A DNA stretch of 64,000 nt from Olsenella sp. An285 (GTDB lineage: Bacteria > Actinomycetota > Coriobacteriia > Coriobacteriales > Atopobiaceae). Location of the stretch: the NCBI RefSeq assembly GCF_002159625.1, contig NZ_NFIZ01000006.1, positions 1 to 64,000 of the forward strand, given 5' to 3'. This document shows positions 3,088-54,587 of the stretch, piece by piece. Positions within the stretch are counted from its first letter, which is position 1; each line of letters opens with the position of its first letter. The position numbers and the translations under genes were made by a program. A model generated the notes under the pieces. The model did not search any database. It saw nothing but the letters and a program-made list of their open reading frames with translations, and had not been told where the DNA came from.

Positions 3088-3134
3088 GGGACTCCCTTCG
3101 CTCGCGATGTTCACGGGCAGTGTAGCACCCGCCT

Positions 3135-3200
3135 GCACAAAACGGGACGTGCCTGAAACGTGCAGAAAGTTGCACGAAACAGGCACGTCCCCTTTTGCGC
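3135..3200. repeat. GGGAC-family hairpin, copy 2
   Basis: Imperfect arms 3135-3154 and 3181-3200 (18 of 20 pair) plus an inner CGTGCA/TGCACG stem. The arm shares GGGACGTGCCTGAAAC with copies at 1-64 and 54447-54516. It lies between the peptidase start and the veg promoter. Confidence 0.8.
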
Positions 3201-3243
3201 AACCGTGCGGCGTGTTCTTGGCGTGAGGGAGAGTTGATTGCGA

Positions 3244-10060: not shown

Positions 10061-10093
10061 GCCGCCCCGTTCGACGCCTTCGGACGGGGCGGC
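10061..10093 (+). terminator. Hairpin after lysS
   Basis: A perfect 10-bp stem GCCGCCCCGT/ACGGGGCGGC lies 8 nt after the lysS stop. The following bases begin a GTGCGG-type repeat instead of a T tract. Confidence 0.55.
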
Positions 10094-10121
10094 CGCACTT
10101 CTCGGCGTCCGCGCGGAGCCC

Positions 10122-10270
10122 GCCCGCACTTCTCGCCGCCCTCCGCAGGTGCGGCCCGCGCCGCACCCCTCGGCCGCACCCCCGCACGTCCGGCGGGTGA
10201 CCGCCAGCACTCCCGGCCGAACGGCGGCGAAACCGCCCGCACCTGCGGCCCGCACTCATGAGTGCGGGCC
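10122..10270 (+). repeat. Left 149-bp inverted-repeat arm (GTGCGG family)
   Basis: This arm is dense in short GTGCGG/CCGCAC units. It begins with GCCCGCACTTCTCG and ends in the 16-bp palindrome CGCACTCATGAGTGCG (10251-10266). Between the arm and the downstream gene are two more half motifs, GAGAAGTGCG near 10289 and GAGGAGTGCG near 10309. Confidence 0.9.
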
Positions 10271-10357
10271 ATCTCCCCTCTATTGGCGAGAAGTGCGCCA
10301 TATGGCCGAGGAGTGCGCCGACTTGGTGGAGAGGCGTGCTGACGTGCGGAGCGTCTA

Positions 10358-11461
10358 CTATCCGGGCTTCTCGCTGGGAACTGCGGGTAGCATCTGGCTG
10401 AGAAGAACGTTTCGCATGTGCGTCGAACCTTCGTCCAAGATGGTGGCGCGCACACGAGCTTCGAACTCGGGACCAGCGGTCCGGGCGAGGGAGTGCGCCA
10501 CGCGGGCGAGGTAGCCGTTGAGCGCGTGTACGGTCCTCACGTTCTTGTAGCTCGCGGGAAAGACCGAGATGTTGCAGCTCTGATAGTCTCGGATGCGCCT
10601 CTGGTCCTCCTCGAAGTTCTTTTCGCTCACGTGCTCCTTGCCGTTGTACTCGCTTGCCGTCAGGTATCCCGGCCAGTTGAAGTCCGGTCGCATCTGCTTG
10701 TGCTCCACGAGGTCGCGCGCCTCTTCCGGCCACTCGATCGGCTCGTTCTCCAGAAAGGGCGGCGTCTCGATTCCTCCGAGGTCCGCTGGCAGCTTGAACG
10801 CAAATGAGAGGAGCGTCTCCTCTGGCGACCCCGCCCCGCTCTGTGCGTACGAGGCGGCGAGGCGCGCTCGCTTGAGCCCTTTTATTCCAGCCATGTTGGA
10901 GAGCAGCGCAGTGATCTCCTCGGGTTTGGCGATGGGAGGGAGCTCGAAGGCACACGGCCCGTGCGCGGGGTCGACGGGGTCTCTGACGTAGGAGCCGCAT
11001 GCCTCCATGGGAAAGGTGAGCAGCTTGAAGAAGGCAGCGTTTGGGGTGAGCGAGCCCCTCTGGACAAGCGTCTTGAGCAGCTGCTCCATTCGGACGAGGT
11101 TCAGGCCAGGAGACTCGACAAAGAGCCGAAGCCCGGGATCTCCGGCATAGAGCCAGGGGCTTCCGTCTGCGTGAACCACCTCGAAGAACGCGTTTGTGGG
11201 AAGGTTGGTCAGGAGCGCTCGGGACGAGATGCATCTGGCAGTGCATCGCGTTCCACGGGAGAAGAACGTGAGGCCGAGTGGCTCGGTGGGGGAGAAGGTG
11301 CTCATCTCTTGGGGAAGGGCGATTCTCAGTGCCGTTAGGTCCACGGGGGAGGAGTGCGCATGCTTGTGAGCGTCCCCGGCGGGGATGAGCGCGAGCTCGG
11401 AATCACGCCTCGCTATACGCGTAAGCTTGAGCGAGTCGCTGCCTGCAAGAAAAACGTCCAT
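10358..11461 (-). CDS. Unknown protein with DUF559/Vsr-like nuclease-type C-terminal region
   Basis: I do not recognise a named function for this 367-aa protein. Residues about 215-310 follow the pattern of DUF559/Vsr-type PD-(D/E)XK folds: GSPEETLLSF, then RPDFNWPGYLTASEYNGKEH at 258-277 (Asp260, Glu271), then an EEDQRR helix and a SVFPASY strand. The N-terminal ~200 residues show no clear motif. ATG at 11461 follows AAGGAGG. Codon use is more varied than in neighbouring genes, consistent with acquisition. A related but divergent protein is encoded at 36628-37788, also next to palindromic repeats. A nuclease or DNA-binding role is inference from the pattern alone. Confidence 0.6.
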   Translation of the reverse strand: MDVFLAGSDSLKLTRIARRDSELALIPAGDAHKHAHSSPVDLTALRIALPQEMSTFSPTEPLGLTFFSRGTRCTARCISSRALLTNLPTNAFFEVVHADGSPWLYAGDPGLRLFVESPGLNLVRMEQLLKTLVQRGSLTPNAAFFKLLTFPMEACGSYVRDPVDPAHGPCAFELPPIAKPEEITALLSNMAGIKGLKRARLAASYAQSGAGSPEETLLSFAFKLPADLGGIETPPFLENEPIEWPEEARDLVEHKQMRPDFNWPGYLTASEYNGKEHVSEKNFEEDQRRIRDYQSCNISVFPASYKNVRTVHALNGYLARVAHSLARTAGPEFEARVRATILDEGSTHMRNVLLSQMLPAVPSEKPG

Positions 11462-11689
11462 GCGAGCCTCCTTCCCAGTGGTGTTGTCCGAGCCTAGCAG
11501 TGGGCGCTTGCAGGAAACTTGCCCCTAGCGCGCACTACGCCTGCCGGATGCTGGCTGCGAGTGCGCGAGCGAGGGGAACGAGGCGGGCAGCGGGTACGCG
11601 AACGAAGTGTGCTGGCCGGGAGAGGTTTTGTGCCGGGGCGCCTTCGGGTGCGAAATCTTCACAGGTCGCTCTCGTCTTCGGAGTGCTCC

Positions 11690-11838
11690 GGCCCGCACTC
11701 ATGAGTGCGGGCCGCAGGTGCGGGCGGTTTCGCCGCCGTTCGGCCGGGAGTGCTGGCGGTCACCCGCCAGACGTGCGGGGGTGCGGCCGAGGGGTGCGGC
11801 GCGGGCCGCACCTGCGGGGGGCGGCGAGAAGTGCGGGC
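11690..11838 (-). repeat. Right 149-bp inverted-repeat arm (GTGCGG family)
   Basis: This is the reverse complement of 10122-10270 with two mismatches. It starts with the same CGCACTCATGAGTGCG palindrome (11695-11710) and ends in GAGAAGTGCGGGC. Further GAGAAGTGCGG copies follow near 11858 and 11888, within 110 nt of the clpC start. The rest of 11462-11689 shows nothing I can identify. Confidence 0.9.
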
Positions 11839-11969
11839 AAGGCGTCGGGAGACGCCGAGAAGTGCGGGGTTCTTCTCGCCCGTTAACGAGAAGTGCGGGC
11901 GGCTGTTTGCGTGCGGTGGCGTGTGGGTACAAACTATAGCTGTGAAACTATCGCGAGAGGACGACCTCA

Positions 11970-20098: not shown

Positions 20099-21010
20099 AT
20101 GGCAAAGAATCAGTCACGCACGCCGGGCCGCGACGTCCGCGGCGGCAAGGGCAAGGGGGCGCGGCCCGTCCGTCCGTCCGCGGGCAATCGAGCGCGGGGC
20201 GAGAAGAACCGTCCGCCCGCGCCTCGTCAGGGCGCTGCGCGCCGCGAGCCGAGGGACCGAACGGACCTCATTGAGGGCCGCAGGGCCGTCGAGGAGGCGC
20301 TCGCCTGCGGAATGCCGCTGAGAAGCGCGCTCGTTCAGGAGCGCTCGGGCGAGCGCGACCAGGCGCTGGAGCGCATCGCCGCCCGTCTGGAGGAGGCGGG
20401 CGTGCCGGTGGAGCGCGTGCCGCGCTCCCGCCTCGACTCCCTTTCGAGCCACGGCGCCCATCAGGGAGTCGTCGTGCGCACGCGCCCCTTCCAGTACGCC
20501 GAGCTCTCCGACGTGATTGCGGCGGCGGGGGAGGGCGACGCCCTCGTGGTGGTGCTCGACCACGTGACCGACCAGGGCAACTTCGGCGCCATCGTGCGCA
20601 CGGCCGAGGTCGTGGGCGCCGCGGGCGTGGTGGTGGCCAAGGCGCGCGCAGCCTCCGTGGGCGTGGGCGCGTACAAGACCTCCGCTGGCGCCGTCATGCA
20701 CCTGCCCATCGCGCAGGTCCCCAACCTCGCGCGCGCGATCGAGGAGCTCAAGGCGGCCGGCTTCTGGGCCTGCGCCGCCACGGAGCACGCCGAGCAGGAC
20801 GTCTGGCACGCCCCCATGGGCGGCCGTCTGGCGCTCGTCATGGGCTCCGAGGGCGAGGGCATCTCGCGCCTCGTGGCAGAGAAGTGCGACTTCGCGTGCC
20901 GCCTGCCCCAGCGCGGGCGCGTGGAGTCCCTCAACGTCGCGCAGGCCACGACCGTGCTCTGCTACGAGTGGCTGAGGCGCGTGGAGTGCGGGGCGGATGC
21001 CGATGCCTAG
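20099..21010 (+). CDS. rlmB: RlmB/TrmH-family rRNA 2'-O-methyltransferase
   Basis: SPOUT methyltransferase, predicted to methylate the 2'-O of G2251 in 23S rRNA. The 303-aa protein has a basic disordered N-terminal ~55 residues, a substrate-binding domain (RTDLIEGRRAVEEAL), and the knotted catalytic domain with motif 1 DHVTDQGNFGAIVRTAE, motif 2 VMGSEGEGI and motif 3 RVESLNVAQA. The order cysS-rlmB-yacP matches Bacillus. ATG at 20099 follows AGAGGGAG. A TATACT box at 20065 may start a transcript here. Close paralogues (TrmH, TsnR) cannot be wholly excluded. Confidence 0.9.
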   Translation: MAKNQSRTPGRDVRGGKGKGARPVRPSAGNRARGEKNRPPAPRQGAARREPRDRTDLIEGRRAVEEALACGMPLRSALVQERSGERDQALERIAARLEEAGVPVERVPRSRLDSLSSHGAHQGVVVRTRPFQYAELSDVIAAAGEGDALVVVLDHVTDQGNFGAIVRTAEVVGAAGVVVAKARAASVGVGAYKTSAGAVMHLPIAQVPNLARAIEELKAAGFWACAATEHAEQDVWHAPMGGRLALVMGSEGEGISRLVAEKCDFACRLPQRGRVESLNVAQATTVLCYEWLRRVECGADADA

Positions 21011-27640: not shown

Positions 27641-27660
27641 CGTGTGCATGGGGCCAGCGG

Positions 27661-28005
27661 GGCCGAGAAGTGCGGGCGCACGTCTCGCTGTGCGCCGAGA
27701 GGCGGACCGCACTCCCTGATTCGAACAAGGAGTGCGGTCAGTTTTGGCGGGCCGGAGCGTCAGGTGCGGTTGGCCTCTTGGCGTCCGTTGCCAGGTGCGG
27801 GCAGGGAGTGCCCTCCGCCCCGCACTCACGGGTGCGGCCGAGAAGTGCGGGCAGTTTTGCCGTGGCGAGGCGCCGAGTGCGGGGTTGCTCTCGGCATCCG
27901 TAGCCAGGTGCGGGCGGGGAGTGCCCTCCGGCCCGCACTCATGAGTGCGACCGAGAAGTGCGGGCACGTGGCAAACGTTTACCGAGAAGTGCGTGGCCAG
28001 CGGCG
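27661..28005. repeat. GTGCGG-family repeat cluster with 113-bp tandem duplication
   Basis: No gene is convincing in 27641-28128. The stretch holds many GTGCGG/CCGCAC units. A ~73-nt core (GCGTCCGTTGCCAGGTGCGG... ending GAGAAGTGCGGGCA) at 27781 recurs at 27894, an offset of 113. The second copy contains CGCACTCATGAGTGCG, as in the cassette arms at 10122 and 11690. An inner CCGCACTCC/GGAGTGCGG dyad lies at 27707-27737. It separates rplL from the rpoB promoter. Confidence 0.85.
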
Positions 28006-36267: not shown

Positions 36268-36393
36268 AACTCTGAGATTTCTGTACATTGGGAGCGGACC
36301 CTTCCAGGCCGTCCGGCGTTTGCGCAGCTCGACGAGGTGCTCGTTCTTCTCGCCCCGTCGAGCGCCCGCGCAATGTACAGAAAAGTCAGAGTT
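36268..36393. repeat. 126-bp GTACAT-type palindromic element, copy 1
   Basis: The ends are inverted: 36268-36289 and 36372-36393 pair at 20 of 22 positions (outer AACTCTGA, inner TTCTGTACATT). The interior holds GTTCTTCTCGCCCC. A second element of exactly the same length lies at 37808-37933 with identical arms. Its interior resembles this one read in reverse. The two bracket the gene at 36628. The rest of 36394-36627 shows nothing identifiable. Confidence 0.88.
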
Positions 36394-36627
36394 CGCCGGC
36401 GGGTACGCGGCAGACCGCGACGGTGGCCACCCCGTCCACCGGCAGAAAGGCGCCGCCCGCGAAGGTTACACGAACCTATCGACGTGAGTCACTTTCTGCA
36501 CTTTTTTGTGCGCGGGCGCCCCTGGCCTTGTGCTTCGTTGCCGCAAGACATAAACGCTCAAACGTATAGGCCAATTCTGCCCGTCTTGGCTTCGGCGCGC
36601 CTGGGGGCGAGGTGATAGCCTCCGCGC

Positions 36628-37788
36628 ATGGAGACCATCATCTGTGACATATCCGCGTTTCTGTACTGGCGCGTTCCGCCGATCGTCCGCCTGCTCGCCA
36701 GCGCGGCGGACGACGACCCCCTGCTCGCCAATCTGGTGAGCCCCGAGGAGCTTTCCAATCTGTGCGCGGGCTGCGCCGAGCTTCCCCTGGCTCGCGCATG
36801 CGCATCCTCCGGCACTCACTGGCGGGCTGCCGGGGAGGCCTCGCGCGCGATTCGCACGTCGTCGGCGCTTCTCTCTGTGTGCATGGAAGGACCCGTGGAC
36901 GTGCTGGTGACAAGGCGCGAGCAGACTCGGCGAGCAACCATCGTGAGGCCGCGCCTGTGGTCGGCCGGCGTTCCGCAAGGTGAGCTGAGCCGGATATCAG
37001 ATGATCTTCGCGTGGTATCGCCCGGGTTTGCGCTCTTGCAGCTTGCCCGGAGGGCGAGCCTGGCGAGGACGGTGCTCCTTGCTGCCGAGCTCTGCGGCTC
37101 CTTTGCGGTCTATTCGGCTCCGGAGTGCCTGCGGGAGGTGCTCCAGCGCCTTGTGGACGCCAACCTTCTCCCGCGGATGGGCGGCTGGGAGCCCTGCCTC
37201 GACCGCGAGGGCAAGCTCACGGACCTCTGGTCGAGAAAGCCCCTGGTCACTCCCGCCGACCTGCGACGCATCGCGGAGCAGTCGCCTTCGCCGGGCGGGC
37301 GCGAGCGGCTGCTCGAGGCAGCGCGGCTGGTGACTCCGGGCGCGGCGTCTCCGTTCGAAGCGAGGGCGGGAATCATCTTGGGCTTCTCGCGCAGACGGGG
37401 CGGGGAGGGGCAGGATGGGTTTGCCCACAATCAGCGTATCGCGCTCACGCCCGAGGCTCGGGCGCTCGCCGGGCGGTTCAGCTGCTATTGCGATCTCTAC
37501 TGGAGGGAGGGGCTGGACCTCGAGTGTCAGAGCAGGCTCGCACACGACGTCGGCTCGAGCTTTCTCTCGGACTCCGACAGAACGGCCGCTCTAAAGCTGA
37601 TGGGGGTGGAGGTCTTGCCCGTTACCTATCGGCAGCTCAAGAATGAGGCCCGCACCCAGGCGCTCTCCAAGATGGTGGCGGAGAAGAGGGGCGTTTCCTG
37701 GGCACCGCCGACGGAGCGGCAGCGTGCGGCAGGTCGGCGCCTAAGAGACGAGGTCCTCGTTGACTGGGAGAGCCTTCCTTTTGTCTGA
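36628..37788 (+). CDS. Unknown protein, second member of the DUF559/Vsr-like family
   Basis: I do not recognise a named function for this 386-aa protein. Its C-terminal third follows the DUF559/Vsr-like pattern also seen in the gene at 10358: ASPFEARAGIILGFSRRRGG near 233, a NQRIAL strand, CYCDLYWREGLDLECQ at 286-301 (Asp289, Glu299), then DSDRTAALKLMG and VLPVTYRQL. The N-terminal half starts CDISAFLYWR and includes ISDDLRVVSPGFALLQLAR, resembling the antitoxin-like half of AbiEi-type proteins only loosely. ATG at 36628; a GAGGTGA lies rather far upstream (14 nt), so expression may be weak. It sits between the two 126-bp elements and breaks the usual rpoC-rpsL linkage. Confidence 0.6.
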   Translation: METIICDISAFLYWRVPPIVRLLASAADDDPLLANLVSPEELSNLCAGCAELPLARACASSGTHWRAAGEASRAIRTSSALLSVCMEGPVDVLVTRREQTRRATIVRPRLWSAGVPQGELSRISDDLRVVSPGFALLQLARRASLARTVLLAAELCGSFAVYSAPECLREVLQRLVDANLLPRMGGWEPCLDREGKLTDLWSRKPLVTPADLRRIAEQSPSPGGRERLLEAARLVTPGAASPFEARAGIILGFSRRRGGEGQDGFAHNQRIALTPEARALAGRFSCYCDLYWREGLDLECQSRLAHDVGSSFLSDSDRTAALKLMGVEVLPVTYRQLKNEARTQALSKMVAEKRGVSWAPPTERQRAAGRRLRDEVLVDWESLPFV

Positions 37789-37803: not shown

Positions 37804-37937
37804 GGCGAACTCTGAGATTTCTGTACATTACGGGGGCGCCTGAAGAGGCGAGAAGAACGATCAGCTCGCCTACCTGCAAAAACTTGGAAGGCCCTTCGGG
37901 CGTCCGCGCGTAATGTACAGAAAAGTCAGAGTTCGCC
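37804..37937. repeat. 126-bp GTACAT-type palindromic element, copy 2, with extended arms
   Basis: The element proper is 37808-37933; in this copy the arms extend to 27 nt each (37804-37830, 37911-37937, 25 pair). The interior carries GGCGAGAAGAACGATCAG. The stop codon of the convergent birA (TCA on this strand, 37926-37928) lies within the right arm. Confidence 0.88.
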
Positions 37938-42780: not shown

Positions 42781-42785
42781 CTGGC

Positions 42786-42862
42786 ACGCGTGCAAAAGGG
42801 ACAGTCACTTTTGCACGCCCGCACGACAGACGTGCAAAAGTGACTGTCCCTTTTGCACGCGT
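42786..42862. repeat. GGGAC-family perfect 32-bp-arm palindrome inside the fab operon
   Basis: Arms 42786-42817 and 42831-42862 are perfectly complementary (GTGCAAAAGGGACAGTCAC). Each arm is itself partly palindromic (GTGCAAAAG/CTTTTGCAC). It lies 6 nt after fabG and 12 nt before fabF. The short form of the same arm occurs at 23533. Confidence 0.9.
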
Positions 42863-48976: not shown

Positions 48977-49009
48977 GGCCCCAGTCGCGGCGCCCGGCCC
49001 GCGGGGACC

Positions 49010-49258
49010 CGGCCCGCACTTCTCGCTATCGCCCGAGAGCCTGCCCGCACTTCTCGGTTTGCGGCATCAGGTGCGGCCCGGCCCGCACTCCTGGCGGGCA
49101 CTTGAGCGTATCGCTGGGGTGGCAGCCCGCACTCAGTGAGAATAACGCGTCATGAAGGCCGCACTTCTTGAGTGCGGCTGAGGGGTGCGAGCGGGCTCTC
49201 GGGAGAGGCCGAGAAGTGCGGGCGGCCCCCCGCAAGATGGCGAGAAGTGCGCCCCGCT
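49010..49258. repeat. GTGCGG-family repeat cluster upstream of rpsL
   Basis: The 462-nt gap after the degV-like gene has no gene. It begins with two CCCGCACTTCTCG units (near 49014 and 49042), has a perfect hairpin GCCGCACT/AGTGCGGC (49158-49178) in the middle, and ends with two GAGAAGTGCG units in the opposite sense (near 49210 and 49239). The cluster is thus symmetric overall. The remaining 49259-49438 holds the rpsL promoter. Confidence 0.8.
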
Positions 49259-49321
49259 GCCAGGTCGCCCCTTCTGCGTGAACATACCGTGAAGGATGGA
49301 TACGCCCGGGTCCGTGGCGTT

Positions 49322-53618: not shown

Positions 53619-54224
53619 ATGCCCGCGCTCTATCTGCTGAGGCACGGGCAGACCCAGTACAACCTCGAGCACCGCGTGCAGGGGCACTGTGACTCGCCGC
53701 TCACGGAGCTTGGCATCGCGCAGGCACGTGCGGCCGGCGCCTGGCTAGCCGCCCAGGGCGCGAGCTTCGAGAGGGTCTTCTCGTCGCCGCTCGGTCGGGC
53801 GCTCGCGACGGCCGAGGTGGCGCGAGAGGAGCTGCTTGCCGCCGGGCTTCCTGCGCCTCGGGTCGAGCCGGTGGACGGTCTCATCGAGCGGAGCTACGGC
53901 CCCTTCGAGGGCGGTCCTGCCGCGGACGTTCCCGCCGAGCTCTGGGACCCCGGAGAGACGCTCGTGCCCTACGGCGGAGAGGGGAGCGCCGCCCTGCGCG
54001 AGCGCATCGTGGATACGCTCACCAAACTCATGCTGTCGTCTGATGCCAAGAACGTGCTCGCGGTGAGCCACGGCTCCGCCACCCTGCAGTTCAAGCTGGC
54101 GTGGGAGCACCTTGCCCGTTGCGAACAGGACGTTCACCTCGGCAACTGCTGCGTGCTCGTCTACGGCTTCGACCGTTCTTCTCGCCAGTTTGTCTGCGAG
54201 AAGATCGTGAACCAGACGGTGTAG
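53619..54224 (+). CDS. Histidine phosphatase family protein
   Basis: A 201-aa branch-1 histidine phosphatase (phosphoglycerate-mutase-like). It has the LLRHGQTQYNLEHRVQG motif with the nucleophilic His near residue 8, a FSSPLGRALATAE arginine segment, ERSYGPFEGG near 88, and the second His in VSHGSATLQF. The substrate is unknown. ATG at 53619 lies one base after thrH, so the two are co-translated. A 20-bp piece of its 3' end (54197-54216) is repeated at 54419-54438. Confidence 0.88.
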   Translation: MPALYLLRHGQTQYNLEHRVQGHCDSPLTELGIAQARAAGAWLAAQGASFERVFSSPLGRALATAEVAREELLAAGLPAPRVEPVDGLIERSYGPFEGGPAADVPAELWDPGETLVPYGGEGSAALRERIVDTLTKLMLSSDAKNVLAVSHGSATLQFKLAWEHLARCEQDVHLGNCCVLVYGFDRSSRQFVCEKIVNQTV

Positions 54225-54438
54225 GGGAGACATTCTCGCTCCTGCGGCTGAACGAGTGCGGCCCAGGCCGCACTCATAAGTGCGGTCGAGAAGTGCGGCC
54301 GTTTTTGGGCGATCTGCTCCTCAGGTGCGTCCGCCCTCTCGCGTGATACCCTCAAGTGCGGCGAACGAGTGCGGCTGGGACCGCACTCAATGCAAAGTCC
54401 AAGAAGTGAAACTGCCACCGAGAAGATCGTGAACCAGA
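54197..54438. repeat. 20-bp direct repeat bracketing a GTGCGG cluster
   Basis: CGAGAAGATCGTGAACCAGA occurs at 54197-54216 (inside the phosphatase 3' end) and again, identically, at 54419-54438. Between them lies a GTGCGG-family cluster (54254-54395) including CCGCACTCATAAGTGCGG and GAGAAGTGCGG. The geometry resembles an insertion with target duplication, or a duplication by slippage. Confidence 0.75.
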
Positions 54439-54446
54439 ACCTTTGA

Positions 54447-54516
54447 TTGCACAAAAGGGGACGTGCCTGAAACATGCAAGGATTTGCATATTTCAGGCAC
54501 GTCCCCTTTTGTGCAA
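54447..54516. repeat. GGGAC-family hairpin, copy 3
   Basis: Arms 54447-54479 and 54484-54516 pair at 32 of 33 positions around a 4-nt loop. It carries GGGGACGTGCCTGAAAC, as at 1-64 and 3135-3200. It lies beside the GTGCGG cluster and upstream of the rplC promoter. Confidence 0.9.
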
Positions 54517-54587
54517 GAGGATGGATACGCCCGGGAGCGCGGAAACTCGAGCCGCAGCTCAGAGCACACAAAACTTTTGCGTAGACA

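Follow-up and report, generated by a model that had tools for sequence, protein, structure and literature searches.

A putative endonuclease gene paired with its own dispersed palindromic element in Olsenella: what looks like a gene-and-repeat partnership of a previously undescribed kind in gut bacteria

At the junction between lysS and clpC in Olsenella sp. An285, a single gene is enclosed by two long inverted repeats, which raises the question of whether the gene and the repeat belong together and, if they do, what the encoded protein may do to the repeat. The locus lies in the window, i.e. the whole stretch of 64,000 nucleotides that was analysed. The left arm (10122–10270, plus strand) represents one complete element that ends in a 24-bp perfect palindrome (10247–10270), and an identical palindrome is found at positions 11690–11713 of the right arm (11690–11838, minus strand). 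The near-perfect 149-bp inverted arms around one minus-strand gene, noted in a preliminary description of this DNA, were confirmed: the arms of 149 nt are 99% complementary and separated by 1419 nt, while gapped alignment widens the pair to 10093–10270 and 11690–11867 (179 columns, 95%). When each arm was folded alone as single-stranded DNA, z values of -3.8 and -4.4 were obtained. The arms had been described as being built of GTGCGG units that also occur elsewhere; the recurrence of the motif held, but the repeated unit proved to be longer and more structured than GTGCGG. The window contains the motif GAGAAGTGCG 16 times versus 0.25 expected (a number reached in none of 100 shuffles), and the 2.41-Mb genome contains GAGAAGTGCGG 53 times versus four times for a reversed control pattern. 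Among the same-strand spacings of GAGAAGTGCGG below 200 bp, 31 bp is the most frequent (12 of 21); this spacing separates the left motifs (10093–10134, minus strand; 10093–10103 and 10124–10134) as well as the right motifs (11826–11898, plus strand; starting at 11826, 11857 and 11888).

The gene between the arms (10358–11461, minus strand) encodes a protein of 367 amino acids with an endonuclease-type core composed of D260, E271, H277 and D286, together with E215 and N239. In a conservation count, D260, H277, E215, S212 and N239 were present in all 71 family members, and E271 and D286 in 68 of them. The protein encoded in the window matched no Pfam or NCBIfam model, its paralog L005 scored above the DUF559 cut-off (22.6 versus 20.6 bits), and at E ≤ 0.01 DUF559 was matched by 11 and the MTES_1575 REase by five of 59 family members, the best DUF559 E value among them being 4e-6. 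In the part of the source consulted, MTES_1575 is presented as a Vsr-type REase domain (PMC3710099). A search of PDB with the family profile returned 3hrl, an 'Endonuclease-Like Protein' (E 0.0063), with which the conserved residues align. The 'Mobile intron protein' 3r3p, which we take to be I-Bth0305I, was matched across the catalytic region at a non-significant E value of 0.36, and three ribosomal proteins at E 0.12–0.13 are taken for chance matches. AlphaFold modelling with 12 orthologs gave a poor fold (pLDDT 55, with residues 228–331 mostly below 50), and a Foldseek search with this model returned nothing at E ≤ 0.001. No transposase model was matched by the window protein (Pfam, NCBIfam) or by family members, and the Pfam family of HUH/Y1 (TnpA-REP) transposases was absent in a set of 12 members as well as in a set of 59. 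We read these data as indicating a putative intact endonuclease core, and the assignment of the family to nucleases, based on the weak profile matches to 3hrl and DUF559, should be regarded as a prediction. The earlier designation of the protein as nuclease-like is thus borne out at the level of the family, which has an endonuclease-type core comprising the D-E-H-D set and weak DUF559/Vsr-type matches. The N-terminal half is variable and may carry specificity. E271 is substituted in three of the 71 members, namely L002 (N), L273 (D) and L276 (D); no inverted arms were found at L002 and L273, and L276 has only a weak 40-nt pair. Members with a changed core may lose their arms.

The length and conservation of the arms had been thought to imply, among other possibilities, recent insertion. 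For the gene, this notion was overturned by comparison of the lysS–clpC junction among relatives. Eleven close orthologs (L020–L030; 64–75% identity; Olsenella, Atopobiaceae and Thermophilibacter provencensis) and four remoter ones (L042–L045; 40–46% identity) are all situated between lysS and clpC, and the gene is ancestral at this position, where it is an old resident. In a survey of the genus, a clpC match was found in 29 of 31 genomes; the gene is present at the junction in 16 (the window genome included) and not in 12, and in G006 a contig end cuts off the junction 128 nt upstream of clpC. There is one close match per genome, and the next matches in the window genome are only 26–29% identical. 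Relative to lysS and clpC, the gene is in the opposite orientation in the window and eight relatives (L020–L026 and L045) and in the parallel orientation in seven (L027–L030 and L042–L044), which on the best LysS+ClpC tree amounts to three orientation changes, at least one of them being forced by well-supported branches. At three junctions that lack the nuclease gene (L108, L114 and L122, in G007, G002 and G024, respectively), another ORF is found upstream of clpC; it encodes an apparent membrane protein, presumably acyltransferase-like, and its presence makes the lysS–clpC junction a possible hot spot of insertion. The gene-free junction L119 (G010) carries, at 1207–1500, a different palindromic repeat of the ACATCGTCTGTATT type.

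All 11 close orthologs have arms that match within their own genome, whether strongly or weakly; the arms are inverted in 10 (weakly in L027, which shares its genome with L039) and strong but direct in L030, and in nine of the 11 inverted arms span the gene at E ≤ 1e-3. Among the remoter orthologs, clear arms were found in L045, only short ones in L042 and L043, and none in L044. Between species, the gene and its element diverge together; the sequence of the arms varies by species, containing GTGCGG in the window and L020–L022 and being GACACTCATGAGTGTC-like in L026–L029. In three cases, the match within a genome greatly exceeds that to the arms of other species (276 versus 54 bits for the window, 322 versus 56 for L023 and 344 versus 59 for L030). 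On the other hand, the arms of L020 and L021 match each other as strongly as they match within each genome, for L022, L024, L025, L027 and L029 an arm of another species matches equally well or better, and the self-match exceeds the values of both row and column in only four of 12 cases. The arms are young by virtue of concerted evolution.

Copies of the element are dispersed through the genomes. In a comparison of 23 genomes at E ≤ 1e-3, the arm from the window gave at least 29 matches in G000, at least 35 in G018, at least 30 in G016, at least 17 in G009 and at least 23 in G006, while among the matches listed there were 0–5 in the other 18 genomes. The arm of L026, searched against 23 genomes, gave 14 matches in its own genome (G011), seven in G014, four each in G003 and G028, three in G019, two each in G005 and G006, and 0–1 in the remaining 16. 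These counts indicate that, in each genome, the dispersed copies are similar to the arms found there. Among eight genus members in which no ortholog was found at the locus, seven have 0–4 arm copies listed. The exception is G006, in which no ortholog was found yet at least 23 copies are present; a motif lies near its contig end, and the gene is possibly located within the assembly gap before clpC.

In the window, dispersed elements of this family include one at 27660–27995, at a site common to G018 and outside the comparable sites of G015, the genome sister to that of the window; one at 49000–49262, present in G018 but missing from G015, which has 88 bp without a motif there; and one at 54250–54400, likewise absent in G015. 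The last is flanked by a 20-bp direct repeat (54197–54216 and 54419–54438) that is single in G015, which suggests that this element (w54288) was inserted. Such a repeat resembling a target duplication was seen at only one of 20 element sites, the other 19 being no better than mismatched flank pairs; no defined transposition reaction is therefore visible, and target duplication was rejected as the mechanism. Of 47 element sites, delimited by eye from motif clusters, 41 are intergenic according to a crude gene call. Among 20 element sites retrieved from G018, 10 coincide with element sites of the window genome. Other dispersed repeats of approximately 70 bp occur in the window at 1–76, 720–794, 3134–3208, 42784–42862 and 54447–54517; they mostly match in both orientations, i.e. 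are self-complementary, and have many copies in G015. At L075 (G000:C12:97100-99200, ~1020–1200), a GTGCGGCAAAACGACG-type repeat shares GTGCGG but appears to belong to a family of its own; it is missing from the corresponding site of G015.

The comparison of lysS–clpC junctions for empty sites, which the preliminary description had proposed, yielded one in G015, where the gene and arms are absent and the flanks are collinear. The missing stretch corresponds to 10070–11871 of the window, and the G015 junction consists of 135 bp of intergenic DNA with one inverted motif pair and no gene. On the LysS+ClpC tree, G015 and the window genome are sisters with a support of 100/100 (LysS 96%, ClpC 98%), and the gene-bearing group that encloses both has a support of 90/98, which is under the star of the program. 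Since G015 is nested among gene-bearing relatives, loss is the best reading of its empty site, and recent insertion of the gene was rejected on this ground as well. The assembly of this one genome is 85% complete and comprises 290 contigs.

The dispersed elements are also depleted in G015, where only two window-arm matches at E ≤ 1e-3, both from one site, were found. Window-type elements have been kept at two of 12 comparable sites (L083 and L084), comparable meaning that both flanks could be located in a G015 sample of 1.22 Mb; they are gone at L072, L074, L078, L079, L080, L086, L090, w49010 and w54288, and at L068 the element is replaced by 1.6 kb of other DNA. L008/L009-type elements, which belong to two paralogs of the window gene, have been kept at six of eight comparable sites (Fisher p 0.019 for 2/12 versus 6/8; 2/11 and p 0.024 without L068), with the retention at L297 and the loss at L300 each resting on one short motif, and G015 retains both an L008-family gene (L253, 93%) and an L009-family gene (in L188). 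The comparable sites represent 12 of the 27 window-type and eight of the 20 L008/L009-type sites, the other 15 and 12, respectively, being left out. Among the 34 loci examined for this comparison (L060–L093), 24 entered it as element sites; coding sequence or a lone motif attributable to chance was the reason for leaving out L061, L070, L071, L073, L081, L085, L087, L089 and L093, a single motif at window position 20879 was taken out of the final count, and L075 was dropped as an apparent repeat of another family, although it is also absent in G015 and its inclusion would favour co-loss. L074 and L090, with three and four loose motif matches in G015 that seemingly belong to a different repeat, were scored as absent. 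The elements at L068, L080 and w49010 are present in the outgroup G018 and in the window genome and not in G015, and were thus lost in G015, while at L074 the direction is less clear. G015 has apparently lost the gene and its repeats together. An accidental pairing, suggested earlier as the outcome if gene and arms occurred in relatives without correlation, is accordingly not what is seen, since all 11 close orthologs have both and the sister G015 has neither.

The pairing extends to other genes of the family and hence is not peculiar to the window gene. The window genome encodes eight paralogs, four of which (L005, L007, L008 and L009) have inverted arms that are dissimilar to each other and to those of the window gene; no inverted arms were found at L002, L003, L004 and L006, so that four of the nine family loci of this genome are armless. 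The arms of L005, L008 and L009 form strong hairpins (z -6 to -12). L009 itself lies in the window (36628–37785, plus strand; 386 amino acids) between different arms of its own: the left arm (36268–36397, plus strand) is a hairpin with TTTCTGTACATT-type ends and recurs at approximately ten dispersed sites of the genome, and the inverted right arm (37804–37933, minus strand) is 76% identical to it. Dispersed copies were likewise found at approximately ten sites for the L008 arm and at four for that of L005. One genome thus contains four gene–repeat pairs (the window gene, L009, L008 and L005), and each of these four arm types has dispersed copies. In the L008 group, inverted arms were found at 12 of 15 orthologs, and both flanking genes are common to 16 of 18 loci (a count that includes three diverged members), with L257 and L266 being located elsewhere. 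The gene at the L008 locus has the same orientation in all 16 syntenic genomes, which indicates that flipping is not general. L267–L269, which occupy the same locus (30–35% identity), have very different arm motifs; in this group, the arm motif shifts with protein divergence. Across the wider family, arms were found in only 21 of 51 rows, in which some loci are counted twice. For the four family members of G033 (L233, L234, L235 and L054; 30–32% identity to the window protein), no inverted arms were found. In an inverted-repeat control covering 1.117 Mb (the window and 80 stretches of G015), six of eight family genes were bracketed, while 15 pairs not involving the family, each with arms of 40 nt or longer, were left; these mostly enclose several genes or are coding matches, and two enclose no called ORF.

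Several explanations for these observations have to be weighed. The protein could be a sequence-specific DNA-binding regulator or chromosome organiser that neither cuts nor spreads the element but uses the arms as its own operators and binds at the dispersed copies. The 31-bp spacing of GAGAAGTGCGG (12 of 21), i.e. approximately three helical turns, the location of the gene between two copies of the element and the fact that paralogs have site types of their own would all fit such a function. Nevertheless, we consider it unlikely. The 40 element sites for which both neighbours were called comprise 19 convergent, 18 tandem and three divergent ones, against seven, 48 and seven, respectively, among 62 gene pairs of the window (p 6e-5 for the convergent excess); this convergent bias and the scarcity of divergent sites make the elements more like extragenic palindromes than operators. 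Moreover, each element is a long hairpin and not a short site, and the near-invariant D, E, H and D suggest catalysis. A nuclease-type core, several paralogs per genome and the apparent disappearance of the repeats along with the gene in G015 would be compatible with a defence or addiction system, in which the nuclease attacks DNA that is foreign or lacks protection, while the repeats in the chromosome serve as a self mark, as decoys or as a penalty on cells that lose the gene. This explanation appears distinctly improbable, given that PADLOC applied to 12 members returned nothing convincing (one member at E 0.035), that a second gene is absent between the arms and that the gene was lost in G015 with its flanks left collinear.

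The occurrence of both orientations among species and the near-identity of the arms in some of them might alternatively reflect an invertible or recombining cassette, in which general homologous recombination acts on the inverted repeats and the gene is a passenger with switched orientation or expression. We give this view very little credence: it does not account for dispersed copies elsewhere, for paralogs with different arms or for the apparent loss of dispersed copies along with the gene in G015, the arms of L030 are direct, and the L008 locus is unflipped in 16 of 16 genomes. Finally, other kinds of intergenic repeats are common in these genomes, and generic repeats could have come to flank the gene by chance and been kept alike by gene conversion. 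Such an accident, hardly credible in our opinion, is already disfavoured by the bracketing of six of eight family genes in 1.117 Mb, by the four gene–repeat pairs and by the species-specific matching.

The explanation that we favour, and regard as probable, is that a putative domesticated, repeat-specific DUF559/Vsr-like endonuclease maintains its palindromic element and at times spreads it. Whereas the pairing of gene and repeat is well supported, the action of the protein on the repeat is what we infer from it. The variable N-terminal half would recognise the repeat, and the C-terminal D-E-H-D core would nick or cut the repeat or the hairpin extruded from it; repair templated by another copy would then convert or restore the element and occasionally copy it elsewhere, resulting in homing of the element within the genome. 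Such cut-and-repair would keep the arms alike, at times flip the bracketed segment and renew the dispersed copies, which would decay after loss of the gene, and it would explain both the species-specific motifs and the several orthogonal gene–repeat pairs. In its broadest form, the proposal is more tentative, and we rate its chances at somewhat short of even: that several mutually orthogonal pairs coexist in these genomes, each made up of a repeat-specific, restriction-fold endonuclease and a palindromic element that is spread and maintained by cut-and-repair, as a second, independent invention of the RAYT–REPIN kind, in which the nuclease is of a homing type and the survival of the element depends on the gene.

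If true, the association of a dedicated, domesticated enzyme with palindromic repeats scattered through a genome would be a convergent solution rather than a peculiarity of HUH transposases, and an uncharacterised multi-copy family of endonuclease-like proteins would gain a substrate. The four gene–repeat pairs in one genome constitute natural specificity swaps, and the sister genome with its apparent joint loss makes the persistence of REP-like repeats in bacteria directly testable. Among the matches listed from open-licence PMC literature, a DUF559/Vsr-like gene paired with dispersed repeats has not been described, and what is seen here looks like a gene-and-repeat partnership of a previously undescribed kind in gut bacteria.

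The system shares features with several known ones. Like insertion sequences and MITEs, it comprises inverted repeats that enclose one gene and gene-free dispersed relatives; unlike them, it combines the lack of a transposase match with a single-copy syntenic gene and no general target duplication. An insertion sequence was rejected on these grounds, in keeping with the earlier opinion that the locus is not a standard one. With the EDxHD homing endonucleases, it shares the idea of a selfish site-specific nuclease, together with the weak and non-significant match to 3r3p; however, the window gene interrupts no conserved host gene or intron and is bracketed by its presumed target rather than inserted into it. 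The likeness to the DUF559/MTES_1575/Vsr-like endonucleases concerns the C-terminal half, with the conserved catalytic-type residues D260, E271, H277 and D286 (aligned with 3hrl) and the passing of the DUF559 cut-off by L005, although the window protein itself matches no model.

The RAYT–REPIN systems offer the broadest parallel. According to the portions consulted of the papers concerned, RAYT genes are single-copy, vertically inherited and adjoin their own REPIN clusters (PMC3116915, PMC8049555), SBW25 has three RAYTs, each beside its own REPIN cluster (PMC3116915), E. coli genomes with a RAYT gene contain more REPIN copies (PMC8049555), and a GTAG/CGTC tag lies at the foot of each REP (PMC3733652). 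The features held in common are a gene flanked by its own palindromic repeat, dispersed extragenic copies of that repeat (here 41 of 47 intergenic by the crude gene call), a single-copy, vertically inherited gene (here at the same locus in 15 relatives) and several gene–repeat pairs per genome. The differences lie in the protein, which in the window family has a D-E-H-D endonuclease-type core and no transposase match, and in the elements, which here reach approximately 150 bp and more and contain 31-bp arrays. Since the defining transposase is absent, the window system is not a member of the RAYT–REPIN group, though it appears to work alike.
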